Assembly (NCBI GenBank): GCA_902516825.1
Contig: CABXZZ010000001.1
Span: 1 to 64,000 of the forward strand
DNA length: 64,000 nt
Reading direction: 5' to 3'
Source of the DNA: an uncultured SAR116 cluster alpha proteobacterium
GTDB taxonomy: Bacteria > Pseudomonadota > Alphaproteobacteria > Puniceispirillales > Puniceispirillaceae
Every line of letters begins with the position of its first letter. Position 1 is the first letter of the stretch. Position numbers and translations under genes: made by a program. Under the pieces are notes generated by a model. That model did no database searches. It worked only from the letters and a program-made list of their open reading frames with translations, and had not been told where the DNA came from. This document shows, in pieces, positions 20,453 through 41,847 of this stretch.

Positions 20453-23673
<3,221 letters not shown>

Positions 23674-23677
<4 letters not shown>

Positions 23678-24732
23678 TTAGTATTGGACGACAAACCATA
23701 GGAGGTGATTCACCCTGTTATATCACGTTAGAAGCTGGGCCAACAATAAATGGTTTCGATTCTGCAAAACAATTAATTGATATCGCGGCAAATACAGGCG
23801 CTGATGCAATTAAATTCCAGTTATTGAATGCAAATGAGCTCGTTGCTGACAAAAAGCAGCAATTTAAATACGAAATATTAATTAATGCGGAAAAGCAACA
23901 AACTAAGAAAATATCAGAATCGCTTTACGATATTCTAAAAAGAAGAGAACTCACAGACGACGAATGGAAAGAATTAAAGAAATATTGTGATAAGAAAAAT
24001 ATAGAATTCTTTGGAACAATATTATCTGACCATTATCTTGAATTAATAAAAGAACTTAAAACAAATACAGTAAAAATTGCTTCTTCAGACATAAATCACA
24101 TACCACTTATAGTTAAGGCCGCAAAGACTGGAATGTGTATTCAATTAGACACTGGAAATGCTTCATATGATGAAATTTCTTATGCAATCAAAAAAATTGA
24201 GGAGCAAGGAAATAACAAAATCGTAATCCATCATTGCCCCACCGGATATCCAGCTGAAATCGAAAGTGTGCAATTAGCTGAAATAACCAAATTAAAAAGC
24301 CTTTTCCCCTATCCAATAGCTTTCTCTGATCATACACCTGGTTGGCATATGAATATAGCTGCAATATGTTTAGGAGCCAATATGGTTGAAAAAACAATTA
24401 CGGTAGATAGAACGACACCATCGGTAGAGCACATGTTCTCCTTGGAAAAAAATGAAGTTCAAAAATTTATCAAAGAGATTAGAGAAGTTGAAAAGGCCAT
24501 CAAAGATACTGAGAGGAAACTTAATCCAGATTTAAAAAAACGATATGCTACACGTAGAAGTATGTTTTCTAAAACTAACATAGAAAAAGGTACAAAAATT
24601 ACAGAAGAGCATATTGAATATAAACGTCCTGGCCTTGGCTTAGGACCCGAAAGGCTAGATGATATCTGTTTTAAAATCGCAAAAAATGACATCCCAGCAG
24701 GTACAATGATAGCCTTAGACCAACTGAACTAA
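23674..24732 (+). CDS. Divergent NeuB-family nonulosonate synthase-like protein
   Basis: A 352-residue NeuB-type barrel with a C-terminal SAF (antifreeze-like) domain (about 285-352, 'NIEKGTKITEEHIEYKRPGL'). The family condenses phosphoenolpyruvate with an amino hexose to give a nine-carbon acid. Seen: 'ADAIKFQ', 'KIASSDINHIPLI', 'HHCPTGYPAEI', 'SDHTPGW'. Two usually conserved positions differ: the EAGVNHNG motif reads EAGPTING (Ile25 for His), and EKHFTLDR reads EKTITVDR (Thr241 in place of a metal-binding His). A canonical PseI is coded at 40176-41225. This one may act on another sugar or be a specialised subfamily. Confidence 0.75.
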
Positions 24733-24741: not shown

Positions 24742-25413
24742 ATGTCATCTATTTCTCATCCCATAGCGATAATACCCGCAAGGGGAAATTCAAAAAGGCT
24801 AGCTAGAAAGAATATCCTTCCATGGAAAGGTATACCGTTAGTTGCCCACTGTGTAAAAAATGCATTAGCAACTAATTTATTTTCTGAGGTTGTTGTTTCT
24901 TCCGAAGATGACGAAATATTAGAGATTTCAGCAAAAGTTGGTGCAAGCCCAATAAAACGTCAAGCAAATTTGTCCAAAGACAGTTCCACTGTAGCTGAGG
25001 TTTGCATGAGTGTTCTTCAGGACTATTCAAACATAAAACAGTTTTGTTGCATTTATCCAACTGCTGTAAAACTAACCTCTGAAACTATAAGGGATTCTTT
25101 CAAGACATTTGAAAAAACTGAAGATTGTGATTTTCTAATGGGTGTATCTTTATACAACTACCCCCCTCAACAAGCCTTAATACAAAACGAAAATGGCGAA
25201 TTAATTTTACTTAATCCTAAATTTGAAAATGTTCAATCTCAATTTTATAAAGAATGTTTCGTCAGCAATGGTACAATTTATTGGGCAAAAAACGAAGCAT
25301 TTCTAAAACAAAAGAACTTTTATGGTAAAAAATTGCATCCATTTATCATAAGCGAAGAACAAGTATCCGATATAAACACTCCTGAAGATTACGATATTCT
25401 GATAAAATCGTAA
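24742..25413 (+). CDS. pseF: CMP-nonulosonate (pseudaminic acid) cytidylyltransferase PseF
   Basis: A 223-residue CMP-sugar synthetase of the NeuA/PseF type. It activates the nonulosonic acid with CTP for transfer. The nucleotide-binding start 'AIIPARGNSKRLARKNILPW' and 'EVVVSSEDDEILEISAKVGA' identify the family; the short length and 'CIYPTAVKL' favour PseF over NeuA. It is the only cytidylyltransferase in the window although two NeuB-family genes are present. Last gene of the pse operon, nine bases after the preceding stop. Confidence 0.88.
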   Translation: MSSISHPIAIIPARGNSKRLARKNILPWKGIPLVAHCVKNALATNLFSEVVVSSEDDEILEISAKVGASPIKRQANLSKDSSTVAEVCMSVLQDYSNIKQFCCIYPTAVKLTSETIRDSFKTFEKTEDCDFLMGVSLYNYPPQQALIQNENGELILLNPKFENVQSQFYKECFVSNGTIYWAKNEAFLKQKNFYGKKLHPFIISEEQVSDINTPEDYDILIKS

Positions 25414-25632: not shown

Positions 25633-28600
25633 ATGGTCTCAATCAACACAAATATTTCCTCCCTTTTAGCTCAAAATAATACTAGACAGGTAAATAATGA
25701 GCTTGAAAAGGCGATGGAAAGGCTTTCATCTGGAATGCGAATTAACTCTGCTGGCGACGATGCGGCAGGATTAGCTATTGCTAGTCGGATGGAATCTCAA
25801 GTTCGCGGGTTGCAGGCCGCAATTAAAAATGCGAACGACGGTATTTCGGTTACTCAAACGGCAGAAGGTGCCATGGAAGAAATCGGTAATATCCTACAAA
25901 GAATGCGTGAACTAGCAGTACAATCTGCAAACGATTCAAATTCTGATGCCGACAGAGCCTATCTTCAACAGGAAGTAGCTCAACTATCCGATGAGATTAC
26001 ACGTATTTCTGAAACAACACAATTCAATGGTGTCAATGTTTTAGACGGAACATTTGCTGGTAAAACATTCCAAATTGGAGCAAATGCTAATCAGAGTGTA
26101 ACGTTAGATATAGCGAATGTTGCAGCCTCTTCTTTGGGTATAGGCGCCTCTTCAACTTCTTCTACTAGTTCTACAACAACAACCACAAGTGGTGTGCCAG
26201 AAGAGATTGGAAATCTTACATTTGATAGAGATGATAGATACGCCTTCCAACTAACCGACCGCGATACAGGCCTTTCTTATCGTATTAATCCCGCAGGTAC
26301 CGCAGCCACGTCTCCTTCAATTATATCTTTGGATCGATTGATTATCACCGATCATGGATTTAAAACAGGTGATGCTGTCTTTAATACTACCATGGTTGGA
26401 GCTCCAGTGAATACGGTTAGTACGCCTAGGTTCATCATAAAAATTGATGAAGATACATTTCAGTTAGCATCAAGCTACGGTGATGCAATCGCTGGCACTG
26501 CTATTACTTTAACAACCGTCTCTCAGCCCACAGTTACTGGTCTTGGTATATCTCTAACGAGAGCGGATGCAGACTCAAGAGCTGATTTTGCAGCACGTAT
26601 CAATTCAGGTTTAAAAGAATCTGCAGTAAATACATCTGTAACAGGTAATGCCGCTGCTGCATCAGTGTCAGCCTCTACTATGAACGCTTCAGCTGCAAGC
26701 GATGACACCTTTAAGTTTACTTTGATGGTTGGGGATACCACTCAAGAAGTTGATTTTGGTGGTCGTATGCTATCTACCAGTCTTCCAGGTGACTCTACTC
26801 TTGCTGCTGCAGATTATGTGCACGTAGCACAAGCAATGAGAGAAGAACTTCATTCGGTATTCGATGATAGTGTCTCTGTTACACAATCTTCAGGTGTATT
26901 TACCATTGAGGATGCCCAAGGTCGTTATCTTGAGTTAAGCCAGGGTGCTGGTAATGGTTATTTCTTTGGATCTGATGAGCAGAATAGTGGTTCAATCTAC
27001 GCGACTGCTACAACTCAAAACAACATCTCTGTTGCCTGGTCTGATGATGGAAGCAATCTAGTGATAAGTCACGCTGCTGCTGGCGGTGTGGATATTACCA
27101 ATTTTGCAAGTACTAGTACTGGTATAGCTACATTTGATGTTGCGGATACAGCAACAACTGGTGTATTGGAGCCTATTGTTCTTCAGGATACTTTGGCAGA
27201 TACAACTGCTTCTGTAAGAGGTATTATTGGTGAGAGTAAGATTGCTCTTAACTTCAGCAATACCTTCGGTTACGCAGCCGATGGAGGAGGTACAGCCAAC
27301 TCTGGACTAGCGGCAAACTATGTGTTTAAAATCACAGATGGTGCGGGTAATGCCTATGCGGACTTTTCTGGAACAACTTCAGCTCTGGATATTCAGCGTT
27401 TTAACAACACAGATGCGGCAATTGAGGCATTTGTATTAGCTAACCTTACTTCACATATTTCATCAACTGGTTTCAACGATGACCGTATTGATATAGGTGA
27501 ATTTGCTGTTGATTATACAGGCGGTATCTTGACAATCACTAACAGCGAAGGTCGTGACCTTAGAATAGAAGATGTTTCATCTTCCTATGGAACAATCACG
27601 GTATCAAAGCTTGATGGATTAGAAGGAACAGAAAAACTTTCATCTCAGGGGTATCAAACTTCGGAGGTGAGATTGGAGCGTGGTTTTGGCACTACAATCA
27701 CAGCAGCCACTGCGACTATGACAATGGTTCTTGATAGTGGTTCGAGCAGCGTTATAACTGTATCTGCTGCTTTTGTGGGCGGTACTGCTGCTGATACTGG
27801 TTGGGAGCAAGCAGCATTGCTAGAGGCAAGATTGCAGGCAGGAACTGCCTCTGAGGTTAGTACCCACCTCCGAGTTGCATATGACTCAACAACTGACGAG
27901 TTTGTCATTCAGAACACTCTTGGTAAGTCCATAGATATCACAGCAACGACAGCTGCAGGATCTGAAGGCCAGTATTTTAAAACTGCTGCCGCAAGCGGGG
28001 GTGCCAATAAGGCGAATGACGTGCTAGTTAGCTCAGGTATAACCTCTGGTGTGTTAACGGAGGCAACTTCTGTGAAGCTGACGTTTAGCCAGGATGATGT
28101 AGATACATTCATTCTTGGTGTAAACTCTCAGGTATCAACTGCTCGTAGCTTTAACTTCGCATCAGATACCTTTGCTTCAAGTACTTTCAAGACAAGTTTT
28201 GATAACCTCATGGCAAAACTAAACACAGAGTACTCGGGAACGCCGTTCTCATATGAAATGGACGCAGCTAATCGTGCAATTACGATTACAAATAGTAAAG
28301 GTGGTGAGATCTTCTTCGATTCTCATACAACCAACTCGACAGACCTTGAGCTTCAGTTGGATGTTATGTCTGGTGTGTTGCAGAATGCTTCTGATACGTC
28401 TGGTAACGGCGATGCTGTGATTAAGGCAAATGAGGCTGTGACTACTGCAACAGCTACTGGAGACGGAAGTGTAGAAACAACAACTTCTACTAGCTCTTCA
28501 TCCTCTAGCTATTCCACTGGTAACACAGGTATAGACCAGCTGACTATCGCTACTCAGGCTGGTGCCAACGATGCACTTGGAAGTATTGATGCTGCTTTAG

Positions 28601-28839
28601 CAACTATCCTTTCAGAAAGAGCAAAACTTGGTGCCCTTGAAAATAGGTTGGACCATACTGTGAATAACCTATCTAACGTTGCAACTAATACATCTGCAGC
28701 TATGGGTAGAATTATGGATGCTGATTTCGCTAGAGAGACAACTAATCTTACGAAATCACAGATCTTGTCTCAGGCAGCGACATCTATGCTGGCTCAGGCT
28801 AATCAGTCTAAGCAAAATATCCTGGCTTTACTTCAGTAA
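25633..28839 (+). CDS. fliC: Giant flagellin 1 (1068 aa)
   Basis: The D0/D1 ends are textbook flagellin: 'MVSINTNISSLLAQNN', 'MERLSSGMRINSAGDDAAGL', 'ILQRMRELAVQSANDSNS', and C-terminal 'ENRLDHTVNNLSNVATNTSA' with final 'QANQSKQNILALLQ'. Usual flagellins are 270-550 residues; here residues about 170-965 are a Ser/Thr/Ala/Asp-rich surface region. It includes an HGFKTGDAVF module (nt about 26346-26510) of a kind seen in large secreted surface proteins. No HExxH metalloprotease motif was found in the central region. Many Ser/Thr residues could accept nonulosonic acid. Strong AGGAGG ribosome site inside a hairpin; followed by a terminator, so it is monocistronic. Confidence 0.95.
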   Translation: MVSINTNISSLLAQNNTRQVNNELEKAMERLSSGMRINSAGDDAAGLAIASRMESQVRGLQAAIKNANDGISVTQTAEGAMEEIGNILQRMRELAVQSANDSNSDADRAYLQQEVAQLSDEITRISETTQFNGVNVLDGTFAGKTFQIGANANQSVTLDIANVAASSLGIGASSTSSTSSTTTTTSGVPEEIGNLTFDRDDRYAFQLTDRDTGLSYRINPAGTAATSPSIISLDRLIITDHGFKTGDAVFNTTMVGAPVNTVSTPRFIIKIDEDTFQLASSYGDAIAGTAITLTTVSQPTVTGLGISLTRADADSRADFAARINSGLKESAVNTSVTGNAAAASVSASTMNASAASDDTFKFTLMVGDTTQEVDFGGRMLSTSLPGDSTLAAADYVHVAQAMREELHSVFDDSVSVTQSSGVFTIEDAQGRYLELSQGAGNGYFFGSDEQNSGSIYATATTQNNISVAWSDDGSNLVISHAAAGGVDITNFASTSTGIATFDVADTATTGVLEPIVLQDTLADTTASVRGIIGESKIALNFSNTFGYAADGGGTANSGLAANYVFKITDGAGNAYADFSGTTSALDIQRFNNTDAAIEAFVLANLTSHISSTGFNDDRIDIGEFAVDYTGGILTITNSEGRDLRIEDVSSSYGTITVSKLDGLEGTEKLSSQGYQTSEVRLERGFGTTITAATATMTMVLDSGSSSVITVSAAFVGGTAADTGWEQAALLEARLQAGTASEVSTHLRVAYDSTTDEFVIQNTLGKSIDITATTAAGSEGQYFKTAAASGGANKANDVLVSSGITSGVLTEATSVKLTFSQDDVDTFILGVNSQVSTARSFNFASDTFASSTFKTSFDNLMAKLNTEYSGTPFSYEMDAANRAITITNSKGGEIFFDSHTTNSTDLELQLDVMSGVLQNASDTSGNGDAVIKANEAVTTATATGDGSVETTTSTSSSSSSYSTGNTGIDQLTIATQAGANDALGSIDAALATILSERAKLGALENRLDHTVNNLSNVATNTSAAMGRIMDADFARETTNLTKSQILSQAATSMLAQANQSKQNILALLQ

Positions 28840-28892
28840 GGTAAAAAAACAAGATAGTTTGTTTACATTCTGAATTTAAAAAATCAATATTT

Positions 28893-28920
28893 AGGGGGCA
28901 GAAATGCCCCCTATTTTATT
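28893..28920 (+). terminator. Rho-independent terminator after flagellin 1
   Basis: AGGGGGCA-GAAA-TGCCCCCT: perfect 8-bp stem (28893-28900 with 28905-28912), GAAA tetraloop, then ATTTTATT. The rest of the 28840-29144 gap is extremely A/T-rich and, apart from the flagellin 2 promoter, shows no gene. Confidence 0.9.
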
Positions 28921-29072
28921 AAAAAAAAATATTTTTTTATTTTTTTTTAAAATTCAATTGAAGTTTTTTAATTTTTTTAAATTATTGTATTTATTTATTT
29001 AATTACGAGTTGCATTTTTCATACCAAAATCTTTTAAGCTTAAAATTTTAAAGATCTCCCTAACATCAAAAT

Positions 29073-29098
29073 TAACACAAAAAAAATCAAGCCGTTTA
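29073..29098 (+). promoter_or_regulatory. Candidate sigma28 promoter for flagellin 2
   Basis: TAACACAA (29073-29080), 10-base spacer, GCCGTTTA (29091-29098). The -10 box is the closest in the window to the FliA consensus GCCGATAA. Predicted leader is about 40 bases, with no hairpin like that of flagellin 1. Confidence 0.55.
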
Positions 29099-29144
29099 CT
29101 TTTACGTTGATTGATTTTTAAACCTTTTTGAAATGGAGATGAAG

Positions 29145-32100
29145 ATGGTAGCGATTAACACTAATATTGCCTCTCTTTTAGCTCAGGAGAGTTCAAGAAA
29201 AGTAAATATTGAGCTGGAAAAGGCTATGGAGAGACTATCTTCTGGCCTTCGTATAAATTCAGCCGGGGATGATGCTGCGGGTCTTGCGATCGCAAGCCGA
29301 ATGGAAGCTCAAGTGAGGGGTCTTCAGGCAGCAATAAAAAACGCATCCGATGGTATTTCTCTTACACAAGTAGCTGAGGGCGCAATGGAGGAAATAAGCA
29401 ATATTCTCCATAGAATGAGAGAATTAGCCATCCAGTCAGCTAATGATTCTAACTCATATGATGAGCGTACATTTTTACAAGATGAAGTCCAGCAACTCGC
29501 AGATGAAATATCTAGAATTGCTCAGACCACACAGTTTAATGGTGTAAATGTTTTGGATGGAACTTATCAGAATAGATTTTTCCAAATCGGCGCTAACGCC
29601 AATCAAAATGTAGGAATTTCAATAGGTGATTTAGGTTCAGCAGCTCTTGGATTAGGCACTGGAAGTGGAATTTTCCAAACTCAGGGTAACCTACAAACTG
29701 GTGAAGCTGAGGAGCTTGGACGCGTTACTTTTTCAAGAGACGATGTTTATTCTTTTCAACTAACCGATAGAGATACTGGTCTATCCTATAGAATTGCAAA
29801 AGCAGCTCAGACAGGAACAGCAACCAGTTCCACTTTTGATACTATTACAGTTGCTAATCATGGTTTTATTACAGGCGATAAAGTAATCAGTTCTACTCTT
29901 GCTGGAGTAAGCACAACTGCATCAACCGTAAGATATATAATCAAAGTTGATGAAAACACATTTAAGCTTGCAACTAATCTTGGCAACGCTATCAACGGCA
30001 CGGCTCTAGATTTAACAACTGCTACCAACCCTAATATTACCGGGGTCGGCTTGACTCTAAGTCGGTCAGACGAAGACTCTAAAGTAGATTTCATTGAGCG
30101 TATTAATAGAGGCTTAAAAGAGTCAGCTTCTAATACTGCAATAACAGGTAATTCCTCGTCAAGAAGTGTTGATGCCACAACTTTTAATGCAGCATCAGCA
30201 GATGATTCCATGTTTAAATTCACCTTGACGGTGAATGGCGTAGCCGAAGATATAGATATAAAAAGCAGAGTTTTAGTTTCTGCGTCTGATACAACGGCTG
30301 TTACATATGCCGAAGCTGCTGCTTCGATGACTAAAGAGGTCGGGGGTCTGTTTGATGAAAGTATTAGCGTTTCCCATTCTTCTGGTGTTTTCACAGTGAC
30401 TGACGCTCAAGGAAGAGCATTAGTAGTTGAACAAGGAAATGGAACTGGCTACTTCTTTGGATCAGACGTTCAAAATAGCGGACCATTAGAGGTACAAGCC
30501 AATGAATTCAATGGTTTGACTGTTGAATGGGATGAAGACGAAATGGTAGTAAGACATGCAAATAGTGGCGGTGTTGATTTAACAAATTTCAGTAGTACTG
30601 GACTTGGCACGGCAACCTTTGATGTAGCTGACACTGCAATAAGCGCTTTAAAAGAGCCAGTTACTTTTCAGGACACCGCAGCGTCTACGGTGGGAAGTGC
30701 TAAAGGCGATATTGGAGAAAGCAAAATTGCTGTTAATTTTTCTAATACCTTTGGATATGCCGCTGATGGTGCTGGGACATCTAATACCGCCTTGGTAGCA
30801 GAATATGGTTTCAAAGTTACTGATGGTGATGGACACCATTATATAGCTTTTACGGCTGGTTCACTTCTGGATATTCAGCGAATGAATAATACGGATGCCG
30901 CTGTTAAAGCAGCCGTAGAGGCAAATCTAGCTGCACAAATTTTAGTTGGAGCAAATTCTGGAAACTTTAACGATAACAGAATATCTGCGGATGAATTTGA
31001 AATCGGTTATGCAAGTGGAATTCTTACAATAACTAACCTCGAGGGTCGTGACTTAGCAATAGAGGAGTTCACCTCAGAGCACGGGACTGCAACGGTGTCT
31101 CTACTAGATGGTCTTCAAGGATCTGAGCACCTTTCTTCGAAGTATTCTCACCATTCGGAAGTGCGTTTGGGAAGAGGATTTCAAACCACTGTTACTGCAT
31201 CTACTGCAACAATGACCTTCACAATTGATAGTGGAACAGCGAGTGTTAGAGATATCTCCTCTGCTTTTCCAGGAGGTACAAATGGTGACACTGGATGGGA
31301 GCAAGCTGCATTACTGGAAACTGCTCTTCAAGCTGGAACTGCAACTGGAGCAAATACAAACATTAGAGTTGCTTACGACTCTAGTACTGATGAGTTTGTT
31401 ATTACAGATATTGTTGGTAGGGAAATAAATATCACTGCAGTTACTGAGCCGGCTTCTTCTGGAACGGGGGCTTATTTTAGCAATAGTGCGTCGGTCGCCC
31501 AGTCAAATAAATATAATCCTGTGGCAACAAGTACTGATGTCGTTTCGGGGATATTAACTGAAGCAACAAAAGTTAATTTAACATTTTCGCAAGATGACGC
31601 AACTAGTGCCTCTTTTGCTCTAAATGGACAAACTGCAACTGCTGTTGACTTCAACTTTGACTCCGACAACTTTCATGGGAGCACATTTAAAACAGTATTA
31701 AATAATTTGATGAACACATTAAATGACGAGTATAATGGATCACCATTTTCCTATGAATTTGATCAGGATAATAGGACTCTTACAATCTTGCACTCAAAAG
31801 GCGGTGAAATATATATTGATAATTTTACAACGTCTGCTGAGAACTTATCCATTAATATGGAAGTTGAGTCAGGAATTGGTGAAGACACTATTATTTCCTA
31901 CGATGAAATTCTAACAGCAGCATCTGCTGAGGGAAGTGGTGAGAATTCGGGCAGACCTAGAATTAATGACGGGTCAAATAGCTCTGGTTTTTCTCAAGAT
32001 ACCAGTAATATCTCAGAATTAGATATATCCTCTCAAGAGGGTGCAAATTCAGCACTAGCTAGTATAGACAATGCTCTAATGTATGTACTCGCAGAAAGAG

Positions 32101-32321
32101 CAAGTCTGGGTGCGATTGAAAACAGGTTGGACCATACGGTTAATAACCTATCAAATGTGGTTACAAATACCAGTGCGGCGAAGGGGCGAATAGAGGATGC
32201 TGATTTTGCAGCAGAGTCTACAAAGCTCACCCGCGCTCAGATATTGGCGCAGGCTTCAACGTCAATGTTAGCGCAAGCTAACCAATCGAAGCAAAATGTT
32301 CTATCTCTTCTCCAGGGATAA
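29145..32321 (+). CDS. fliC: Giant flagellin 2 (about 1058 aa)
   Basis: A paralogue of flagellin 1 along its whole length, including the surface region (shared blocks: IGESKIA-NFSNTFGYAADG, GYFFGSD-QNSG, GWEQAALLE-LQAGTA, AFQLTDRDTGLSYRI-type). The ATG at 29145 (MVAINTNI) is chosen over in-frame ATGs at 29133 and 29139 because GGAGA at 29136-29140 serves it and because it matches the flagellin 1 start. Canonical ends: 'LSSGLRINSAGDDAAGL' and 'QANQSKQNVLSLLQG'. It most likely arose by tandem duplication; the two have since diverged in the outer domain. Ends before a hairpin that overlaps the next promoter. Confidence 0.95.
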   Translation: MVAINTNIASLLAQESSRKVNIELEKAMERLSSGLRINSAGDDAAGLAIASRMEAQVRGLQAAIKNASDGISLTQVAEGAMEEISNILHRMRELAIQSANDSNSYDERTFLQDEVQQLADEISRIAQTTQFNGVNVLDGTYQNRFFQIGANANQNVGISIGDLGSAALGLGTGSGIFQTQGNLQTGEAEELGRVTFSRDDVYSFQLTDRDTGLSYRIAKAAQTGTATSSTFDTITVANHGFITGDKVISSTLAGVSTTASTVRYIIKVDENTFKLATNLGNAINGTALDLTTATNPNITGVGLTLSRSDEDSKVDFIERINRGLKESASNTAITGNSSSRSVDATTFNAASADDSMFKFTLTVNGVAEDIDIKSRVLVSASDTTAVTYAEAAASMTKEVGGLFDESISVSHSSGVFTVTDAQGRALVVEQGNGTGYFFGSDVQNSGPLEVQANEFNGLTVEWDEDEMVVRHANSGGVDLTNFSSTGLGTATFDVADTAISALKEPVTFQDTAASTVGSAKGDIGESKIAVNFSNTFGYAADGAGTSNTALVAEYGFKVTDGDGHHYIAFTAGSLLDIQRMNNTDAAVKAAVEANLAAQILVGANSGNFNDNRISADEFEIGYASGILTITNLEGRDLAIEEFTSEHGTATVSLLDGLQGSEHLSSKYSHHSEVRLGRGFQTTVTASTATMTFTIDSGTASVRDISSAFPGGTNGDTGWEQAALLETALQAGTATGANTNIRVAYDSSTDEFVITDIVGREINITAVTEPASSGTGAYFSNSASVAQSNKYNPVATSTDVVSGILTEATKVNLTFSQDDATSASFALNGQTATAVDFNFDSDNFHGSTFKTVLNNLMNTLNDEYNGSPFSYEFDQDNRTLTILHSKGGEIYIDNFTTSAENLSINMEVESGIGEDTIISYDEILTAASAEGSGENSGRPRINDGSNSSGFSQDTSNISELDISSQEGANSALASIDNALMYVLAERASLGAIENRLDHTVNNLSNVVTNTSAAKGRIEDADFAAESTKLTRAQILAQASTSMLAQANQSKQNVLSLLQG

Positions 32322-32337: not shown

Positions 32338-32367
32338 AATGTCAACTTACTCCGGTAAGTTGGCATT
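32338..32367 (+). terminator. Hairpin terminator after flagellin 2, overlapping a sigma54 promoter
   Basis: Arms 32338-32350 and 32355-32367 pair over 13 bp with one G-U, with a TCCG loop; core CAACTTAC/GTAAGTTG. The following CTTCTTGC is only moderately T-rich. The right arm contains the -24 element of the next promoter. Confidence 0.65.
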
Positions 32368-32376
32368 CTTCTTGCA
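32361..32376 (+). promoter_or_regulatory. Sigma54 promoter for the TPR-glycosyltransferase pair
   Basis: TGGCATTCTTCTTGCA matches TGGCA-N6-TTGCW. The expected transcript start, about 32387, lies after the first possible ATG (32384), which supports a GTG start at 32405. Confidence 0.78.
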
Positions 32377-32404
32377 ATCTTAAATGATTTTCAAGGCATT
32401 TATT

Positions 32405-34159
32405 GTGACACCCTCATATTATTTTAACAGTGACGAAAATCAGAATACCAAAAAATCATCTTTCAATAATTTTGGCTCACAGAGCAATCAAAAAAATAAA
32501 AGCCATCAAAGAGAAAGACAAGAGGAAGCTTATTCCAACAGTCTTAAAAAAGGCAAAATAAAATTAAGTCAAAAAGATTTTAAAAATGCCAAAAAAGATT
32601 TTCTTTCTGCTTTTTCAAGCAAGAAAACAATCGAAATAGCACATCTACTATCCACTTGTTTTTCAAATCTAAAAGAGTACGAAAAAGCAAGTGAATTTTT
32701 TGAGCAGAATTTGCACCATTATTCGGAAATTGGACCTTACTGGGGCATTCTTGCACTTCATCATTACCTAATTGAAGACGAAGAAGGGGCTGCAGGAGCC
32801 GCATTAAAAGCCATAGAAGAATTTAACATTCAAATCCCAGAAATATGGAAAATTTTTATATACTCGGCCAAAAAACTGAACCAAGTTGATTTGATCTATG
32901 ACATTTGCAAAAAACATTCGAAATTATCTCATCTTAATCCTTATATAATCGAGGGGTACATAACAGGATGCTGCTCTACGAACAACTACGAGGAGGCAAG
33001 TGATTATATCAAATCCATTGGATTAACAAAGGATAATGCTCTTAGATTTGGAGAGATATCTTCATCATTATGCACAATGGTAGCGGCTATTTTAGAGAAA
33101 ACTACTAATGATATCAAAGAAGAATTAAGTTGGAACCTTTTAGCAAATCAATTAAATCCAGACAATAGCCCAATAAGATGGAATCTATCACTTTCCCAAT
33201 TAAAAAATGGACAAATAGAAGTTGGAGCTAACAATTATGAGGCCAGATTTAATTGCAAAGAGTTTGTAAGCCCTATTGAAAAATTTAGAAAACCAAAATG
33301 GAATAAGAATATAGCGAATAATTCAAAAATACTATTATGGTATGAACAGGGAATTGGTGACGAATTGAGGTTTTTGTCGGCCCTACCCTTTTTTCTAGAA
33401 GATTTTCCAAACGTCATTATTGAACCAAGTGATAAAATCCTTGGACTTTTACAAAACTCATTTTCAAAATTAGAGGTTAGAAAATCAGTTTTTTATGAGG
33501 GATATACTGACCAAAAAGAAGATTTCGATTATCACCTTCCAATGGGGAGCATGTTTTACTACGTAATAGAAAAATATAAAGAAAAATTTATAGAAAAAGA
33601 CTTTTCTTTACTAGAATCTTTTCTTGAAGCCGACCATTTAAGAGTGAATTACTGGAAAAATAAACTAAAAAAATTAACTAGAAAACCTAAAATTGGGTTT
33701 TGCTGGAGAAGTGGCTTAATTACCCCAGATAGATCAAGAGAATATTCAACTTTAGATGACTGGAAACCGTTACTCACTCAAGAAGATTTTTCTTTTGTAA
33801 ATCTCCAGTATGATATAGATTATCAGGATTTTACTAATTTTCATCCAAATTATTCTGCCAATTTTTTAGAAACTGGTTTCCTAGATCAAAAAAATGATAT
33901 TGAGGGAGCTGCCAGTTTAATTTCAAACCTAGATTTTGTAATTTCTGCTGGCTCAAGTCCCTCAATGGTTTCTAATGGTCTTGGGATACCTACATTGGTA
34001 TTTTGCTCAAGTAACTTACATTGGCTTGGAAGAACAGATAAATTCTCAAAGTGCCCACTTTTTAAAAATTCATATATTTATCCAACTTTCAACGCCTCTG
34101 AAGATCCAAATCTAGTCTCAGACGTTTCCAAATTCATCAATAGATACTTCACCACTTAA
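32405..34159 (+). CDS. TPR-GT-B protein 1, probable flagellin glycosyltransferase
   Basis: About 584 residues. The N-terminal half (to about residue 280) is helical with TPR-like pairs ('EIAHLLSTCFSNLKEYEKAS'). The C-terminal half has 'LLWYEQGIGDELRFLSALPF', 'KPKIGFCWRSG' and 'DIEGAASLISNLDFVISAGS', the GT-B-like domain that follows TPRs in many proteins. This is the architecture of Caulobacter FlmG, where TPRs bind flagellin and the GT domain adds pseudaminic acid. The gene lies directly after the flagellins and between sugar-acid genes, under a sigma54 promoter. GTG at 32405 is chosen because an upstream ATG precedes the predicted transcript start; AAGG lies eight bases before the GTG. Confidence 0.72.
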   Translation: MTPSYYFNSDENQNTKKSSFNNFGSQSNQKNKSHQRERQEEAYSNSLKKGKIKLSQKDFKNAKKDFLSAFSSKKTIEIAHLLSTCFSNLKEYEKASEFFEQNLHHYSEIGPYWGILALHHYLIEDEEGAAGAALKAIEEFNIQIPEIWKIFIYSAKKLNQVDLIYDICKKHSKLSHLNPYIIEGYITGCCSTNNYEEASDYIKSIGLTKDNALRFGEISSSLCTMVAAILEKTTNDIKEELSWNLLANQLNPDNSPIRWNLSLSQLKNGQIEVGANNYEARFNCKEFVSPIEKFRKPKWNKNIANNSKILLWYEQGIGDELRFLSALPFFLEDFPNVIIEPSDKILGLLQNSFSKLEVRKSVFYEGYTDQKEDFDYHLPMGSMFYYVIEKYKEKFIEKDFSLLESFLEADHLRVNYWKNKLKKLTRKPKIGFCWRSGLITPDRSREYSTLDDWKPLLTQEDFSFVNLQYDIDYQDFTNFHPNYSANFLETGFLDQKNDIEGAASLISNLDFVISAGSSPSMVSNGLGIPTLVFCSSNLHWLGRTDKFSKCPLFKNSYIYPTFNASEDPNLVSDVSKFINRYFTT

Positions 34160-34187
34160 TTGTTAAGATTCAAAAAGAGAAACAAAA

Positions 34188-35927
34188 ATGAATAACTTGG
34201 CTAATGATCCCTCGGGTAAAGAGAACAAAATATGTTCTAAGCCCATCTCAACAAAAAAATTAAATAAAAAAAAGCTTAAGGCTTTGGACAAATTTGAGGA
34301 ATTAAACGGTATATCATGGCAAACTCTCAAAGAAAGAGGAATGATTTTTCTAGACTCTGAAAATTTTCCAAAAGCTAAGCTTTGTTTACTGAAGTCTCTG
34401 AATATGCACAAAGATTTGGAAGTTGTGCATAAATTAATGCTTTGCATGTCTCATTTAAAACAAACCAAGGAAGCCACTCAGATATTAGAAGAGAACCTGC
34501 AGCATTTTCAAACTGTTGGGCCATATTGGGCATTATTCGCTTTTTATGCACTAGGAGAAAAACAATACGAAACATCGTTTGGAGCAGTTTTACAAGCAAT
34601 CACCATATATGACCAAAATTTTCCTGAAATGTGGAAAATTTTTTCTTTATCCGGTTTAATGTGTGATCAACACGAGAAAACTAAACAAATAAGCAAATCG
34701 TACATGGATAAAGGTACTTTCAACGAATTTATTTTTGAAAGTTTTATTAATTCGTGTCTTCAGTTAGGAGATTCGAAGGAAGGACTAGATTTTCTTTACT
34801 CAACTACATTTGATTGGAAACAATACCCAATATTAATAGGTATTGCTGCCAATTTACATGGGCATTTTGAAAAGGAAAATTCAAATCAGCTTAAACTAAA
34901 TAAAAAAGCAGTTGAGCTTGCACCTGAGAATGAAAAACTTCGATGGAACCTAGCACTTTCACAACTTCGAAATGGTGATATAAAAGAAGGTCTAAATAAT
35001 TATGAGATTCGGTTCGAGTGGGATGAATACCCAAGCCCTGTAAGACAATTTAAAAATGCAAAAAGGTGGCATCCAGATGTGGACCCGGATGCACGTATTA
35101 TGCTCTGGTTTGAGCAGGGTATTGGAGACCAATTACGATTCTGGTCTGCTCTTCCTGATTTTAAAAAACGTTACCCTAACATAATATTAGAACCAATGGC
35201 TAAAACTGCTGAGATCCTTCAGTCATCTTTCCCAGACCTGGAGGTACGATGGAACAACATAAATCCAGAAAATTTATTTTCATACGAGGAAGATTTTGAT
35301 TACCATCTACCAATCGGTTCAATGTTTGGATTCGAAGTTCAAAAACATGCTGAAAAACTCAAGAATAAGGATTTTTCGCTAAATTGGAATTATCTCAAGC
35401 CTGATAAGTTAAGGAAAATGTATTGGGAACAAAAACTAAACACACTGTCAAATAAACCAAAAATAGGCTTCTGTTGGCGCAGCCAAAACACTAGTGGCCA
35501 TAGAAAAAGTGAATATACAGAGCTATACCAATGGCAAAATCTTCTGCAAAATCCAGATTTTAGTTTCGTAAATTTACAATATGACCTCAGTCATGAAGAG
35601 TTTTTGGAAAAGTACGGAGATTTCGAAAAAAGCTTTTTAAATACTGGTCATTTAGACCAAAAAGACGATTTGGAAGGAGCTCTGTCATTGATATCAAATT
35701 TAGATTTTGTTATTAGTGCGAGTGCAGCACCATCAATGATATCGAGTGCATCTGGCATCCCAACTATCATATATTCTTCTCCACACATGTATACCTATGG
35801 AAGGTTAAGTGCTTTTTCAAAATGTTGTCTATTTGGAAACTCGGTATCTTATTTAACCTCGGACGTGTCTAAAGATGGAAACTTAGTAACAGATATATCC
35901 AACTATTTAATTAAACGCTCTAAATAA
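34188..35927 (+). CDS. TPR-GT-B protein 2, probable flagellin glycosyltransferase
   Basis: A 579-residue tandem paralogue of the preceding gene with the same order of parts: TPR-like helices ('VVHKLMLCMSHLKQTKEATQ'), then 'IMLWFEQGIGDQLRFWSALP', 'KPKIGFCWRSQN' and 'DLEGALSLISNLDFVISASA'. The catalytic-half motifs are better conserved between the two copies than the TPR halves, which would fit one type of donor sugar and different acceptors. Two such enzymes beside two giant flagellins invite the idea of one enzyme per flagellin, or one for the filament and one for hook or cap proteins; this is not shown. GAGAAAC precedes the ATG, 28 bases after the previous stop. Confidence 0.72.
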   Translation: MNNLANDPSGKENKICSKPISTKKLNKKKLKALDKFEELNGISWQTLKERGMIFLDSENFPKAKLCLLKSLNMHKDLEVVHKLMLCMSHLKQTKEATQILEENLQHFQTVGPYWALFAFYALGEKQYETSFGAVLQAITIYDQNFPEMWKIFSLSGLMCDQHEKTKQISKSYMDKGTFNEFIFESFINSCLQLGDSKEGLDFLYSTTFDWKQYPILIGIAANLHGHFEKENSNQLKLNKKAVELAPENEKLRWNLALSQLRNGDIKEGLNNYEIRFEWDEYPSPVRQFKNAKRWHPDVDPDARIMLWFEQGIGDQLRFWSALPDFKKRYPNIILEPMAKTAEILQSSFPDLEVRWNNINPENLFSYEEDFDYHLPIGSMFGFEVQKHAEKLKNKDFSLNWNYLKPDKLRKMYWEQKLNTLSNKPKIGFCWRSQNTSGHRKSEYTELYQWQNLLQNPDFSFVNLQYDLSHEEFLEKYGDFEKSFLNTGHLDQKDDLEGALSLISNLDFVISASAAPSMISSASGIPTIIYSSPHMYTYGRLSAFSKCCLFGNSVSYLTSDVSKDGNLVTDISNYLIKRSK

Positions 35928-35959: not shown

Positions 35960-35975
35960 TGGCATTAATTTTGCA
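35960..35975 (+). promoter_or_regulatory. Sigma54 promoter for hisH-hisF-pseA
   Basis: TGGCATTAATTTTGCA matches TGGCA-N6-TTGCW; 34 bases before the TTG start of the hisH-like gene. Confidence 0.78.
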
Positions 35976-36009: not shown

Positions 36010-36624
36010 TTGATTAAAGATATTGGAATTATAGACTATGATATGGGTAACATTAGTTCTCTATCAAATGCCATTATAGAAGTTGGCGGCAAACCCTCAA
36101 TAATTAATGATCCAACTTCAGTTGCGGGATTTTCTAAAATCATTCTGCCGGGAGTTGGGGCTTTCAAAGATGCAATTTCTAATTTAAAGAGCAAGCAATT
36201 TATTAGCGTTTTGAATGACTTTGCTTCATCGGGCAAACAAATCCTAGGTATATGCTTAGGGATGCAATTAATGTGTAAAACTTCATCCGAAAATGGCTAT
36301 TTTGATGGACTTGGTTGGTTCGATGCTGAAGTTAATAAATTACCAAAAACTAGTAATATCAAACTCCCTCATATCGGTTGGAATGAAGTAAATTTTTCCA
36401 AGCAAAATGCATTATTAGAAACTATAAAAGACAAGTCAGATTTTTATTTTGTACATGGATATCATGTTGAATGCAAAAATTATGAAGACATTTTATCAAC
36501 CTCTTCTCATGGGATAAATTTCGTCTCTGCAATACAAAATAAAAATATTACTGGAGTACAGTTTCACCCGGAAAAAAGTCAATCAGCTGGACTATCACTA
36601 ATTAAAAACTTTCTGGAGAGCTGA
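36010..36624 (+). CDS. hisH: HisH-type glutamine amidotransferase of a sugar-amidation set
   Basis: A 204-residue class I glutaminase. 'PGVGAFKDAI', nucleophile Cys in 'ILGICLGMQLM', 'HIGWNEV', and His/Glu in 'GVQFHPEKSQSAGLSLIKNF' are intact. TTG start at 36010, needed to include 'IGIIDYDMGN'. Genes of this type beside hisF-like and wbpG/pseA-like genes release ammonia for making acetamidino or similar groups on nonulosonic or uronic sugars rather than for histidine synthesis. Context (sigma54 promoter, sugar amidotransferase two genes on) supports that. Confidence 0.85.
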   Translation: MIKDIGIIDYDMGNISSLSNAIIEVGGKPSIINDPTSVAGFSKIILPGVGAFKDAISNLKSKQFISVLNDFASSGKQILGICLGMQLMCKTSSENGYFDGLGWFDAEVNKLPKTSNIKLPHIGWNEVNFSKQNALLETIKDKSDFYFVHGYHVECKNYEDILSTSSHGINFVSAIQNKNITGVQFHPEKSQSAGLSLIKNFLES

Positions 36625-36626: not shown

Positions 36627-37385
36627 ATGCTTAAGAAACGTTTAATCGCAGTTTTGATAGTAAATGGAAAGTACGTAGTCCAGAGCGTAAAATTCAAACA
36701 TACTAACGCGATTCATTACGATGCAGCAGAGGCTATTGAATGCTTCAACAAATGGTCAATAGATGAAATTATTATTCTAAATGTTTCGAGGACTGAAGAA
36801 ACAAGAATGGAGTTTAGTAAGACTATAGAGAATATATGCAAAAAATGCTTTCTTCCAGTGGCAGTGGGGGGATGGATTACAGATATAAATTATTCCAGAG
36901 AATTATTTTATAAAGGTGCTGATAAACTTATTCTAAATACCGCCTTTCACACTAATCCTGCTCTTTGCGAGAGTTTAGCGTCTAAGTTTGGAACTCAGAG
37001 CATTACAGCCTCAATTGATGTAAAAAAAGAGAATAAAAGAACAACCGTTTGGGTAAACCGCGGCAGAATAAATACTGAATACCATCCATCAGATTGGGCG
37101 AAACGTGCTGTTGAACTGGGCGCCGGTGAAATATTCTTTAATTCAATTGACCATGATGGAGCAAGAAAAGGATATAATTTAGTTACGTTAAACGATATTT
37201 GTTCAAGCGTAAATGTACCCGTAATAGCTTTCGGAGGGGTTTTTAATTGGTCCCATTTGTCTGAGGGAATAAGAGAAGGAGCTGATGCAGTAGCTTTAGC
37301 TAATCAACTTCATTACACAGAACATAGCGCTCGTAGAGCAAAAAAATTTCTGATAAATGAAGGTCTAAACGTTAGGAGTATTTAG
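36627..37385 (+). CDS. hisF: HisF-like cyclase homologue lacking the catalytic Asp11
   Basis: A 252-residue (beta/alpha)8 barrel aligned with HisF from the first residue. Canonical HisF begins with a KRIIACLDVK-type sequence; here 'KKRLIAVLIVNGKYVV' has Ile11 in place of catalytic Asp11. The Asp of the SIDVK segment (Asp130 in Thermotoga HisF) is kept, as are 'VAVGGWITD' and 'AFGGVFNWSHL'. Loss of Asp11 argues against imidazole glycerol phosphate synthesis and for a role as ammonia conduit between the HisH-like glutaminase and the following amidotransferase. Two bases after hisH. Confidence 0.85.
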   Translation: MLKKRLIAVLIVNGKYVVQSVKFKHTNAIHYDAAEAIECFNKWSIDEIIILNVSRTEETRMEFSKTIENICKKCFLPVAVGGWITDINYSRELFYKGADKLILNTAFHTNPALCESLASKFGTQSITASIDVKKENKRTTVWVNRGRINTEYHPSDWAKRAVELGAGEIFFNSIDHDGARKGYNLVTLNDICSSVNVPVIAFGGVFNWSHLSEGIREGADAVALANQLHYTEHSARRAKKFLINEGLNVRSI

Positions 37386-37393: not shown

Positions 37394-38686
37394 ATGAAAT
37401 ATTGTAAAAAATGTCTTTATCCCATTAATGCAAAACCTACAATTATTTTTGATGATGATGGAGTATGTAGTGGTTGTAGATATCATGAAAGCCGAGTTAA
37501 ACTTGAAATAGATTGGAAACAAAGAAAAATAATATTTGAGCAAATTATTGATGAGGCAAGAAAGCTCAAAAAGATACGCGGCAACTCTCACGACTGCATA
37601 GTGCCTGTTTCTGGTGGAAAGGACTCCCATTATCAGGTATGGCTTTTAAAAAAGAAATATGGGTTAAACCCGTTACTTGTCACTTTTAATCATGCGTTTA
37701 ACACTTCATCTGGACTTAGAAACTTAGAAAATTTGATTGAAAAATCTGGCTGCGATGCAATACGGTATTCAGCTGGTTTAGACTCAGTATATCGAATTAG
37801 CAGTTATATGTTGAAGGAAGTTGGTGATATTACATGGCATTATCATGCAGGAATAAGAACCTTTCCCTTTCAGATTGCAGTTAAATATAACATTCCTCTT
37901 GTGATTTGGGGGGAACATGGCTTTGCTGAACTAACCGGCATAGTATCTCTTGAAGATTTTGTTGAACACACCAGATGGACGCGCAAAGAGCATGACATGA
38001 GGGGATATGAGCCCGAGACATTAATTGGTAAAAATAACATTACCAGAGCAGATATAGCACCCTACATATATCCTTCTGAAGATGAAATAGAAAACACCGA
38101 AGTTCGAGGCATTTACTTGAGTAATTTTTTTGATTGGAATGCAAAATCACATGCTGAATTGATGATGAGGGAATGGCAGTTTTCTCCTATCACCTTCAAA
38201 AGGGATAGGACTTTTAATCTTTATTCAAAAATTGAAGATCATGCGAATGACGTTCATGATTACCTAAAATATCTAAAATTTGGATATGGCAGAGCGACTG
38301 ATGATGCATCTATGGAAATAAGACACGGAAGGCTTACTAGAGAAAAAGGAATTCAATTAGTACAAGAATATGATTCCAATGAGCCCTCAACGTTAGAGCA
38401 CTATTGCGATTTCTTGGAAATAACTAAAACTGATTTTTACAAAGTTGTAGAGAACCAACGTGACCCAGAAATCTGGCAAAAAAATAAATCTGGAGAATGG
38501 GAGGTTAGAGATGCTGTGTGGTTCAACACAAAAGCGCAGAAGAATAATAAAAAAGAAAATGAATCAACTGAAAACAGCACTTTTAGCGAAAAAAATCGTC
38601 AATTGTATTTTAATCCCAACCTCCCTCCTTTAAAATTTGGGGATAGAGCAGTTGATGAGGCTGACTTAAAGTTCAGGGCGTTATAA
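37394..38686 (+). CDS. pseA: N-acetyl sugar amidotransferase, WbpG/PseA family
   Basis: A 430-residue PP-loop enzyme. The N-terminus has two CxxC pairs ('YCKKCLYPI' and 'GVCSGCRYH'), a probable zinc site, followed by the ATP-binding 'CIVPVSGGKDSHYQ'. The family (WbpG in Pseudomonas O-antigen, PseA in Campylobacter) turns an N-acetyl group into an acetamidino group using ammonia from HisH/HisF partners, both present just upstream. The last about 55 residues are a polar tail. GGAG precedes the ATG. The stop overlaps the end of a convergent pseudogene by six bases. Confidence 0.82.
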   Translation: MKYCKKCLYPINAKPTIIFDDDGVCSGCRYHESRVKLEIDWKQRKIIFEQIIDEARKLKKIRGNSHDCIVPVSGGKDSHYQVWLLKKKYGLNPLLVTFNHAFNTSSGLRNLENLIEKSGCDAIRYSAGLDSVYRISSYMLKEVGDITWHYHAGIRTFPFQIAVKYNIPLVIWGEHGFAELTGIVSLEDFVEHTRWTRKEHDMRGYEPETLIGKNNITRADIAPYIYPSEDEIENTEVRGIYLSNFFDWNAKSHAELMMREWQFSPITFKRDRTFNLYSKIEDHANDVHDYLKYLKFGYGRATDDASMEIRHGRLTREKGIQLVQEYDSNEPSTLEHYCDFLEITKTDFYKVVENQRDPEIWQKNKSGEWEVRDAVWFNTKAQKNNKKENESTENSTFSEKNRQLYFNPNLPPLKFGDRAVDEADLKFRAL

Positions 38687-39644
38687 AGAATCAGTCTCTC
38701 GTTTAACTAAATTGGTTGAAAGCATTTTTAATTTTTTTTGAGCAATAAATTCTGAGTTACCGCTTCCAGTAATATCTTCGAAATTGGGGAATCGCGAAGA
38801 TAATGCCACGGAGCGGTAAATTTTCCTAACATTTTGTCTTTTTGCAAACCTTCTTAATCTCTTCGGGGTCTGAAATTTATTTTTGTCGTAATACCCAAGT
38901 ATATCACTCTTAGATACTTTAAGTCTCACAGGTGCCTGAGGTAAATTTTGAAGCATTACGCAAGAATCCACGCCAAGCATTTCCTGAAGTGTGATTCTAT
39001 CAATATCGAAAGATATGCCATAATCTTTAGAGGTCTTTTTGAACTTCTCAAATATTTCCTAAAAATTTGATGGCGAAATATTATCAATAAGAGTTTTGAA
39101 TTCTTTATTCACACTTTAATATTCCCTTGCTGCTGGAATAATATGGTCCTCTAATAGCCCACCGTTTACGTTAAAAACAGTAAATAAATGGCCACTTTTT
39201 TTTGTAACTCTTGAGAGCTCAGAAAAAGCACATTCTATTTGATAATAATTTGCAAGATTGAGCAAAACACCATGACAGCACACAAAATCAAATTCTTAAC
39301 CTTCAAAGGGAAAAGATATAACATTTACACTTTGAAATTTAATGCTACCTTCCGCCAATCCTTGTTTTTTTGCTTTTTCTCTTGCTATTGGGATGAGATC
39401 CTCCCCAAGGTCAACACCTGTCACTTTTGCGCCAAGATACTTAAATTTAATTGATAATTTTGCCCTGTCCCCGCAACCTGCATCCAATTGTTTCTTATTA
39501 GAAACAAAAAATTTTGTCTACCCCAAAATAATCAGGCTCAATCATAGACATGAACCTGTCCATAGCTATCTGATTTCCAGCGACTCTTTTATGCTGTTCA
39601 TAATAAATCTCACGAGTTTTTTCGTTTATTAGTTTTTCATTCAT
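38681..39644 (-). pseudogene. Decayed SAM-dependent methyltransferase
   Basis: Reading the minus strand from an ATG at 39644 gives 'MNEKLINEKTREIYYEQHK', then a break. Removing one base from the 6-base homopolymer at 39506-39511 restores the frame into 'LDAGCGDRAKLS' and 'GAKVTGVDLGEDLI', the SAM-binding motif I of class I methyltransferases. In-frame stops then occur at 39296-39298, 39116-39118 and 39059-39061, each followed by continuing sensible protein ('EFDFVCCHGVLLNLANYYQ', 'GYYDKNKFQTPKRLRRFA'). One frameshift and three stops over about 320 codons with otherwise good sequence indicate recent inactivation. It heads the minus-strand sugar-acid group. Confidence 0.85.
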
Positions 39645-40175: not shown

Positions 40176-41225
40176 TCAGTCAAAATCATCTGCCGTAACC
40201 CTAAAACCTCTCTTAATATTGTTTTTCACTTTTTTACCCAAGACATTATAATAATATTTTGGTTCTAAGCCAAAACCGGGTCTGATTCTTCTTACATGCT
40301 CCTCCGTTATAACATCCCCTACCCTTAAATTTTCAACAAAGTATAGTGAGCGTCGAAAAATTTTATTTTCCTTTTCAAGTTTTGATCTGGAGCAGCTATT
40401 TTCTCCCAAAGCATGATATGTTTCATCTGTCTTAATGACTAACTCTCTCATTTCATCAGGTTCAAGAGAAAAACTACTGTCAACACCACCTTGATCTCTT
40501 GAGAGTGTAAAATGTTTTTCTATCAGAGATATACCTAATGCTGTTGCAGCTATTCCTGCGACTGTTCCCCTAGTATGGTCAGACAACCCAACATGTACAG
40601 AAAATTCTTTTTTTAACAAATTAATTCTAGCTAAGTTTGCTGACGATAGTGGGGTCGGATAGCTGCTTACGCAATGGAAAATAGCTAATTCTTTGCAACC
40701 ACCAGATTTAACTGTTTCAAGCGCCTCACCAATCTCTTCAAAAGTTGCCATTCCAGTTGAGATTAGCATGGGCTTTCCCTTTGACGCCACGTATGACAGC
40801 AATGGTAGGTCTGTTATTTCAAATGAAGCAATTTTATAAGCTGGAGTATTGAGCGTTTCTAATAAATCTACCGCAGTCTCGTCAAAGGGAGTAGAGAAAA
40901 TAGTAACACCAACTTTTTTTGCGTAACTAAATAATTTTTTGTGCCAAACATATGGTGTAAATGCCTCACCATATAATTCATATAGGGTTTTACCTTTCCA
41001 AATACCTTTTTGAATTTTAAAATCGTCAAGATTGCAATCTATTGTCATGGTATCAGGCGTGTATGTTTGAATTTTTACAGCATGAACTCCACAAGATTTA
41101 GCAGCCTTAATAGTCTCAAACGCTCTCTCGAGACTACCATTATGATTAGCTGATATTTCAGCAATCACAAATGGACTGTTGTCTGTCGAGATTGTATGTT
41201 TACCTATTTTTATCGGCTTAAGCAT
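40176..41225 (-). CDS. pseI: Pseudaminic acid synthase PseI
   Basis: A 349-residue NeuB-family synthase with PseI-type motifs: 'FVIAEISANHNGSLERAF', 'VKIQTYTPDTMTID', 'KIASFEITDLPLLSYV', 'GLSDHTRGTVAG' and 'EKHFTLSRDQGGVD', so both metal-binding His positions are kept, unlike the paralogue at 23674. A C-terminal SAF domain follows ('LRVGDVITEEHVRRIRPGFG'). It condenses the 2,4-diacetamido hexose with phosphoenolpyruvate to give pseudaminic acid. It overlaps the upstream formyltransferase gene by eight bases, hence one operon on the minus strand. Confidence 0.92.
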   Translation of the reverse strand: MLKPIKIGKHTISTDNSPFVIAEISANHNGSLERAFETIKAAKSCGVHAVKIQTYTPDTMTIDCNLDDFKIQKGIWKGKTLYELYGEAFTPYVWHKKLFSYAKKVGVTIFSTPFDETAVDLLETLNTPAYKIASFEITDLPLLSYVASKGKPMLISTGMATFEEIGEALETVKSGGCKELAIFHCVSSYPTPLSSANLARINLLKKEFSVHVGLSDHTRGTVAGIAATALGISLIEKHFTLSRDQGGVDSSFSLEPDEMRELVIKTDETYHALGENSCSRSKLEKENKIFRRSLYFVENLRVGDVITEEHVRRIRPGFGLEPKYYYNVLGKKVKNNIKRGFRVTADDFD

Positions 41226-41847
41226 TCCTGGAGTCCTTTGAGAGCTTTAAACGTGTTATCTCTTCGGAGATTATCGTATTCCAACCCATAAAATCTTTGG
41301 GGAGATCTGACTTTTTATGGATGGTACCGTGTTCCCTTTGCTCAAACGATTTCCATCTTAAATCAAGCATGTCATCAATATTTGCTATCAACATTTTCTC
41401 AATCTCTATTTTTAACCTCTGATGCGCTTTTAGAAAAGTAAACTTTTGTTCATCTATATCTATTTTTTTTCTAAAAATGATCGGCCCAGTATCTATTCCC
41501 GCATTCAATTCATGTATAGTGATGCCACATTTATTCTGGTCATAAAACGCCCAAAATATTGGGTGAGCACCCTTATTGTAGGGTAAAAATGACATGTGAA
41601 GATTAATAATTGGACACCCAATAGTCTTAATAATTTCACTGGACAATATATGCCTGTAACCAAAACTTATTGCTAAGTGATAATTGTCAAAACAAATATT
41701 ATTTTCACAATGCGTAACCTCATATCCCCTAACTTCAAGGTCTTTAATAAGTCTAGTAGAATTGGTATCGTAGCCAAGAAACAATATTTTGTTACTTTTA
41801 TTATAATGACTCGAAAAATTCATCTTACCAACATCTCGACGGTTCAT
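41218..41847 (-). CDS. Formyltransferase-family sugar-modifying enzyme
   Basis: A 209-residue protein with the core of the formyl-THF transferase fold: 'INLHMSFLPYNKGAHPIFWA' (Asn and His of the catalytic set) and 'HELNAGIDTGPII' (Asp). Such small stand-alone enzymes put formyl groups on amino sugars in surface polysaccharides and glycoproteins. Lying before pseI, it could make an N-formyl variant of the flagellar sugar acid. The start may be the ATG at 41847 or an internal one at 41823; neither has a strong ribosome site. Confidence 0.72.
   Translation of the reverse strand: MNRRDVGKMNFSSHYNKSNKILFLGYDTNSTRLIKDLEVRGYEVTHCENNICFDNYHLAISFGYRHILSSEIIKTIGCPIINLHMSFLPYNKGAHPIFWAFYDQNKCGITIHELNAGIDTGPIIFRKKIDIDEQKFTFLKAHQRLKIEIEKMLIANIDDMLDLRWKSFEQREHGTIHKKSDLPKDFMGWNTIISEEITRLKLSKDSRNA

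Follow-up and report, generated by a model that had tools for sequence, protein, structure and literature searches.

Tandem genes for putative FlmG-like glycosyltransferases beside two giant flagellins in a SAR116 alphaproteobacterium

We analysed the first 64 kb (hereafter the window) of a 107-kb contig from the 62% complete genome of an alphaproteobacterium of the SAR116 order, with a focus on two tandem genes, T1 and T2, located directly downstream of two giant flagellin genes. Both encode a putative tetratricopeptide repeat (TPR) region followed by a glycosyltransferase (GT) domain, an architecture referred to here as TPR-GT. The order on the plus strand is PseB, PseC, a NeuB-family synthase, a PseF-like gene, FliC1, FliC2, T1, T2, HisH2, HisF2 and PseA/WbuX; beyond PseA/WbuX, PseI, a formyltransferase and FliD follow on the opposite strand. 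The block of flagellins and TPR-GTs is thus flanked by genes for nonulosonic acids (NulO), which confirms the tandem arrangement and the location described in an initial annotation of this DNA. The central features are the following:

25633..28839, + strand: giant flagellin FliC1, 1068 aa (Pfam Flagellin_N 2e-47, Flagellin_C 2e-25)
29133..32321, + strand: giant flagellin FliC2, 1062 aa (Pfam Flagellin_N 5e-45, Flagellin_C 1e-27)
32361..32375, + strand: sigma54-type -24/-12 site upstream of T1-T2, TGGCATTCTTCTTGC (TGGC-N7-TTGC)
32405..34159, + strand: T1, 584 aa, with TPR solenoid (residues 25-283) and GT-B domain (309-583) predicted from sequence and structural model; alternative open reading frame (ORF) start at 32384
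33344..33373, + strand: EQGIGDELRF motif of T1, from sequence; conserved in 40 homologues
34188..35927, + strand: T2, 579 aa, with TPR solenoid (residues 20-277) and GT-B domain (304-578) predicted in the same way

T1 and T2 are separated by 28 bp and preceded by one promoter-like site. The sigma54 promoter that had been suggested for them agrees with the site at 32361-32375, a pattern found 16 times in the window compared to 2.2 expected, a number never attained in 100 shuffles. As the implied transcription start at about 32387 is located downstream of the ATG at 32384, the GTG at 32405, which has AAGG just upstream, is the preferred start, and translation of T1 likely begins there. A perfect 8-bp inverted repeat (CAACTTAC-TCCG-GTAAGTTG) lies after fliC2 at 32343-32362 and overlaps the -24 element of this site. 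The two proteins are 42% identical across 534 aa (E 3e-146), and EQGIGD(E/Q)LRF and GFCWRS, both noted in the initial annotation, are present in each of them. No variation was seen across 40 aligned homologues at E, Q, G and D in EQGxGD, at G and W in GFCW or at Q in NLQ. All of these residues are retained in T1 and T2, and therefore neither copy looks dead.

By sequence the TPR signal is weak (best Pfam match TPR_8, E 8.6e-4, under the cut-off), and searches of Pfam, NCBIfam and PDB sequences assigned no GT family to the C-terminal half. We therefore turn to AlphaFold2 models built with 40 homologues, which have a mean predicted local distance difference test (pLDDT) score of 86.4 and 86.9 for the two proteins and comprise about 15 helices followed by a GT-B fold; the helical solenoid spans residues 20-283, with block pLDDT values mostly of 75-95. 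In Foldseek the best matches of the T2 model were the TPR glycosyltransferases SPINDLY and OGT, along with TPR superhelices, and the GT half matched heptosyltransferase II, with 1psw among the matches. The likeness to OGT and SPINDLY is one of fold only, as Pfam found no Glyco_transf_41 signature in T1 or T2; likewise, it found no Maf domain (PF01973). Each protein is predicted with confidence to consist of a TPR-type solenoid and a GT-B domain, in line with the TPR-like and GT-B-like halves that had been read from the sequence.

In Caulobacter crescentus the TPR half of FlmG binds flagellins, and both halves are required for their modification with pseudaminic acid (PMC7591256). By analogy, T1 and T2 are quite probably FlmG-like cytoplasmic protein O-glycosyltransferases, a judgement that does not extend to how they would divide the work. 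As for FlmG, the TPR solenoid would bind flagellin monomers in the cytoplasm, and the GT-B domain would transfer a CMP-activated NulO to Ser/Thr residues of the flagellin core before export. Most likely the acceptors are FliC1 and FliC2, whose mid-domains contain 23-26% Ser+Thr across more than 800 residues. Architecture, fold, gene neighbourhood and the recurrence of that neighbourhood lend good support to the designation FlmG-type, which had been made from the sequence.

The genes that could provide the sugar, together with the neighbouring features, are:

21388..22488, + strand: PseB-type UDP-GlcNAc 4,6-dehydratase (inverting); NCBIfam TIGR03589 538 bits, over the cut-off of 407.8
22478..23677, + strand: PseC-type aminotransferase; NCBIfam TIGR03588 438.7 bits, over the cut-off of 423.5
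23674..24732, + strand: divergent NeuB-family nonulosonate synthase; Pfam NeuB 2e-66, under the PseI and NnaB cut-offs
24742..25413, + strand: CMP-nonulosonate cytidylyltransferase, PseF-like; TIGR03584 186.9 bits, just under the cut-off of 205.7
35960..35974, + strand: second sigma54-type site, upstream of HisH2; pattern match
36010..36624, + strand: HisH2-type glutamine amidotransferase (sugar amidation partner); TIGR01855 5.6e-68, grouped with HisF2 and PseA/WbuX
36627..37385, + strand: HisF2/WbuZ-type partner of the sugar amidotransferase; TIGR03572 2.8e-65, best family, under the cut-off
37394..38686, + strand: PseA/WbuX-type N-acetyl sugar amidotransferase; TIGR03573 342 bits, over the cut-off of 203
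40176..41225, - strand: PseI pseudaminic acid synthase; TIGR03586 478.7 bits, over the cut-off of 340
41218..41847, - strand: sugar N-formyltransferase paired with PseI; Formyl_trans_N 2e-17, same pair in the genus-mate genome G009 (contig C1)
42579..45173, - strand: FliD filament cap, 864 aa, a candidate but unsupported acceptor; FliD_C 5.5e-33, FliD_N 6.8e-11

For the CMP-pseudaminic acid pathway, PseB, PseC and PseI exceeded their cut-offs, the PseF-like gene (the only close CTP_transf_3 match in the assembly) fell just short, and a formyltransferase is present; no gene was identified as PseH in the 62% complete genome. The sugar transferred by T1 and T2 is probably a NulO. The initial proposal of pseudaminic acid is partly supported by these three enzymes, and the donor may be a sugar of the pseudaminic type, of which amidated or formylated forms are probably used as well. 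Within the NulO block several short ORFs (39116-39644, - strand) read like fragments of an S-adenosylmethionine-dependent methyltransferase and probably represent a decayed gene. A phage or plasmid origin of the locus was rejected, as we found a single distant phage match and plasmid matches mostly to Azospirillum replicons.

When named genomes were scanned with an alignment of TPR-GTs, blind to gene context, 75 loci were obtained, whose fetched flanks contained flagellar genes in 31 cases, a flagellin in 17 (12 of these within 1 kb of the TPR-GT), a NulO synthase in 16 and tandem TPR-GTs in 13. The recurring neighbours of TPR-GTs in other genomes are flagellins. The closest arrangement, a NulO operon followed by two TPR-GTs and a flagellin, was found in Solimicrobium silvestre (L099) and an Oxalobacteraceae metagenome-assembled genome (MAG; L121), and Tepidicaulis and a Rhodobiaceae MAG carry tandem TPR-GT pairs within flagellar clusters. 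T1 and T2 are thus a further example of a recurring proteobacterial arrangement of TPR-GT, flagellin and NulO genes, several of them in tandem. A contig labelled as an Akkermansia muciniphila MAG (L075) holds flagellar genes, a TPR-GT, PseI and HisH/HisF/PseA genes, a set close to that of the window, and is probably mislabelled or misbinned. Other loci, mostly from Azospirillum (L061, L082, L094, L113 and others), encode chains of some 2000-2500 aa that each contain three or four such GT domains.

We also surveyed the order in 73 genomes, made up of the window's own and of others with a completeness of at least 80%. In these the GT domain occurred together with flagellin in 31/33 genomes (Fisher p 1e-5) and with NeuB in 22/33 (p 8e-6), p-values that ignore phylogenetic relatedness. 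Copy numbers of TPR-GTs correlated with those of flagellin (rho 0.56) and NeuB (rho 0.59) across the 73 genomes, relatedness likewise being uncorrected. A strict rule of one enzyme per flagellin was discarded, since the counts correlate and yet are not 1:1. Maf (PF01973), the usual alternative, was over the cut-off in 1 of the 73 genomes (G023) and had no match over the cut-off in the window's genome. The lone Maf lies on a contig (G023:C41) that also holds the flagellins and NeuB of that genome, and it looks like a non-orthologous replacement of the TPR-GT. A third, distant TPR-GT of 555 aa, about 24% identical, is present elsewhere in the window's own genome (L173:6462-8129, G000:C15); no flagellar or NulO gene was recognised in its vicinity.

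In the phylogenetic tree T1 and T2 were sisters (support 0.91) within a clade (0.999) that includes the homologues of genus-mates, and FliC1 and FliC2 were sisters as well (0.93). Therefore, enzyme and flagellin were duplicated separately within the same lineage; judged from the sequences, T1 and T2 are lineage-specific duplicates, and so are the flagellins. A tandem duplication within the lineage would thus have given rise to T1 and T2 in parallel to that of the flagellins. One explanation for keeping two copies is dosage or partial redundancy, whereby enzymes of overlapping specificity would together provide the activity that two giant Ser/Thr-rich flagellins demand. The short intergenic gap, the shared promoter-like site, the long Ser/Thr-rich mid-domains and a divergence typical of the family without any skew are consistent with it. 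However, an identity of 42% is far more divergence than expected for a recent dosage copy, and since both proteins keep the conserved motifs, selection appears to act on each of them. We regard this explanation as rather improbable.

Alternatively, T1 and T2 may use different activated sugars on the same flagellins; for instance, one could be pseudaminic acid and the other an amidated or formylated derivative of it, or the sugar made by the divergent NeuB. Such a donor specialisation is a real rival because two NulO synthases are present at the locus, alongside amidotransferase (HisH2/HisF2/PseA) and formyltransferase genes, and the GT halves have diverged to 49% identity. Moreover, the genus-mates G001, G005 and G009 each have a single close TPR-GT, whose GT half is 38-42% identical to those of T1 and T2, beside a different NulO pathway (in G001 comprising NeuB_NnaB, NeuC and NeuD). 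Transferase and donor genes therefore seem to turn over or to be exchanged together, while FlgK, FlgL, FlgH and FlgI persist (about 62-88% identical among genus-mates). In the nearest relative, the genus-mate G003, an ortholog of the divergent synthase with 74% identity lies upstream of flagellin, and the contig ends inside the flagellin. On the other hand, besides a weak match the assembly has one CMP-NulO synthetase of this type, and tailoring of the sugar before or after its transfer would not require a second transferase. In addition, the PseI-formyltransferase pair of G009 is located away from recognised flagellar genes and may hence serve another glycan. Taken together, we consider different donors unlikely to account for the pair.

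A different pattern was observed in more distant members of the order. In a single-contig, complete genome of the same family (G022), we found 12 Flagellin_N matches and five TPR-GTs among the flagellins. The GT halves of these five are 98-99% identical at the protein level and 99-100% at the DNA level, whereas the preceding 240 residues share only 47-61%; the near-identical stretch starts a few repeats before the GT and extends to the stop codon or slightly beyond it. The genes are located at L045:3818-12080 and L160:11216-12922. Four of them form inverted pairs in divergent orientation, and the 5' ends of the first and the fourth are shared (368 bp, 99.7%), so that inversion or shuffling between them is conceivable. 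Near the five genes lies the remnant of a decayed GT, interrupted by four stops. Similarly, two adjacent TPR-GTs behind a flagellin in a genome of another family of the order (G070, L162:10496-14835) are 95% identical in the GT half and 35% in the TPR half; the first carries an additional domain at its N-terminus, whose sequence resembles a methyltransferase. The simplest reading of these sequences is that one donor serves several acceptors and that gene conversion or domain shuffling keeps the GT uniform. A limited literature search found no papers on flagellin glycosyltransferases with constant GT and variable TPR halves, which is not proof of absence, and the sets look like a new form of the TPR-GT arrangement. 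They may point to modular targeting in the order, in which a near-identical GT half is maintained while TPR halves are swapped and diverge, which would let several enzymes attach one sugar to different flagellins or sites. This proposal, in which T1 and T2 would represent an older outcome of the same process, is tentative, and we hold it to be less likely than not.

For T1 and T2 themselves, we call a division of labour by acceptor most likely, with a confidence somewhat short of an even chance: the enzymes may act on different flagellins or on different sites of the same giant flagellins. The suggestion of the initial annotation that the duplicate reflects acceptor specialisation is hence plausible but unproven. 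It draws on the parallel duplication of the flagellins and gains indirect support from the sets in G022 and G070, which argue that this order can take the route of acceptor specialisation and are not proof for T1 and T2. The same annotation had named hook, junction or cap as possible second targets, for which no support was found. A related scheme, in which the second enzyme either elongates a glycan begun by the first or modifies a different axial protein (FlgE, FlgK or FliD), could be prompted by the unusual size of all axial proteins and by the proximity of T1-T2 to fliD. We consider it very unlikely, as it has no sequence evidence, the two proteins are sister paralogues of equal architecture, and the adjacent partners recurring in other genomes are flagellins. 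As to size, FlgE has 1495 aa, FlgK 1739 aa, the flagellins 1068/1062 aa and FliD 864 aa (window 6852-11339, 15223-20442, 25633-32321 and 42579-45173). Giant flagellins have already been described (PMC6248924), and flagellin open frames reach 2101 aa in an order-mate (G030).

Several points, in addition to the phylogenetic caveat on the survey, weigh against NulO transfer to separate acceptors. A single FlmG modifies six flagellins in Caulobacter (PMC7591256), which argues against a need for acceptor specialisation. Between T1 and T2 the TPR halves are 34% identical, lower than the GT halves; nevertheless, compared with a fit on 2171 pairs this is a family-typical proportion and no TPR-biased divergence (z -0.59), and both GT lobes have diverged about equally (z 0.51). 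Therefore, sequence divergence cannot tell acceptor from donor specialisation. PseG gave a sub-threshold match and none over the cut-off in the 62% complete genome, and the divergence of one of the two NulO synthases argues against a pure pseudaminic acid pathway. A NulO as the universal donor of TPR-GTs was rejected because 11 genomes of the order have a TPR-GT without NeuB; accordingly, not every member of the family is a NulO transferase. Finally, the likeness of T1 and T2 to FlmG is one of architecture, size and setting as given in its description.

Acceptor choice by cytoplasmic O-glycosyltransferases is poorly understood (PMC7591256). The natural sets with constant GT and variable TPR halves beside many flagellins are ready-made domain swaps and hint at how target choice evolves. 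The pair in the window, with two flagellins and two NulO synthases, offers a small system for separating acceptor from donor specialisation, and flagellin glycosylation by TPR-GTs would be extended to a marine group in which Maf is nearly absent.

Among known systems, FlmG of C. crescentus (CCNA_01524; Ardissone et al. 2020, PMC7591256) is like T1 and T2 in its length of about 590 aa, with a TPR N-terminal half of about 300 aa and a GT-B C-terminal half of about 290 aa, in its flagellin partner, in the need for NulO pathway genes and in the lack of Maf. However, FlmG is a single gene and not a tandem pair, and the flm genes of Caulobacter have dispersed locus tags (PMC7591256), whereas T1 and T2 lie in a flagellin/NulO cluster. 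Maf proteins such as Aeromonas Maf1 also transfer NulO to flagellin in the cytoplasm and are encoded beside flagellin and NulO genes, but they belong to another transferase family (PF01973); PMC13317340 describes the TPR part of Maf-1 as C-terminal and cites Maf paralogues that differ in site specificity. OGT and SPINDLY (GT41) share the N-terminal TPR superhelix and the GT-B domain, and differ in their donors, with about 10% identity and a low whole-chain TM-score. The pairs of neighbouring TPR-GTs that immediately precede a flagellin in Solimicrobium silvestre and the Oxalobacteraceae MAG, again with a NulO operon, resemble the window most in arrangement, but their pathway genes are of the legionaminic/neuraminic type, the gene order is different and their GT halves are only about 30% identical to those of T1 and T2.

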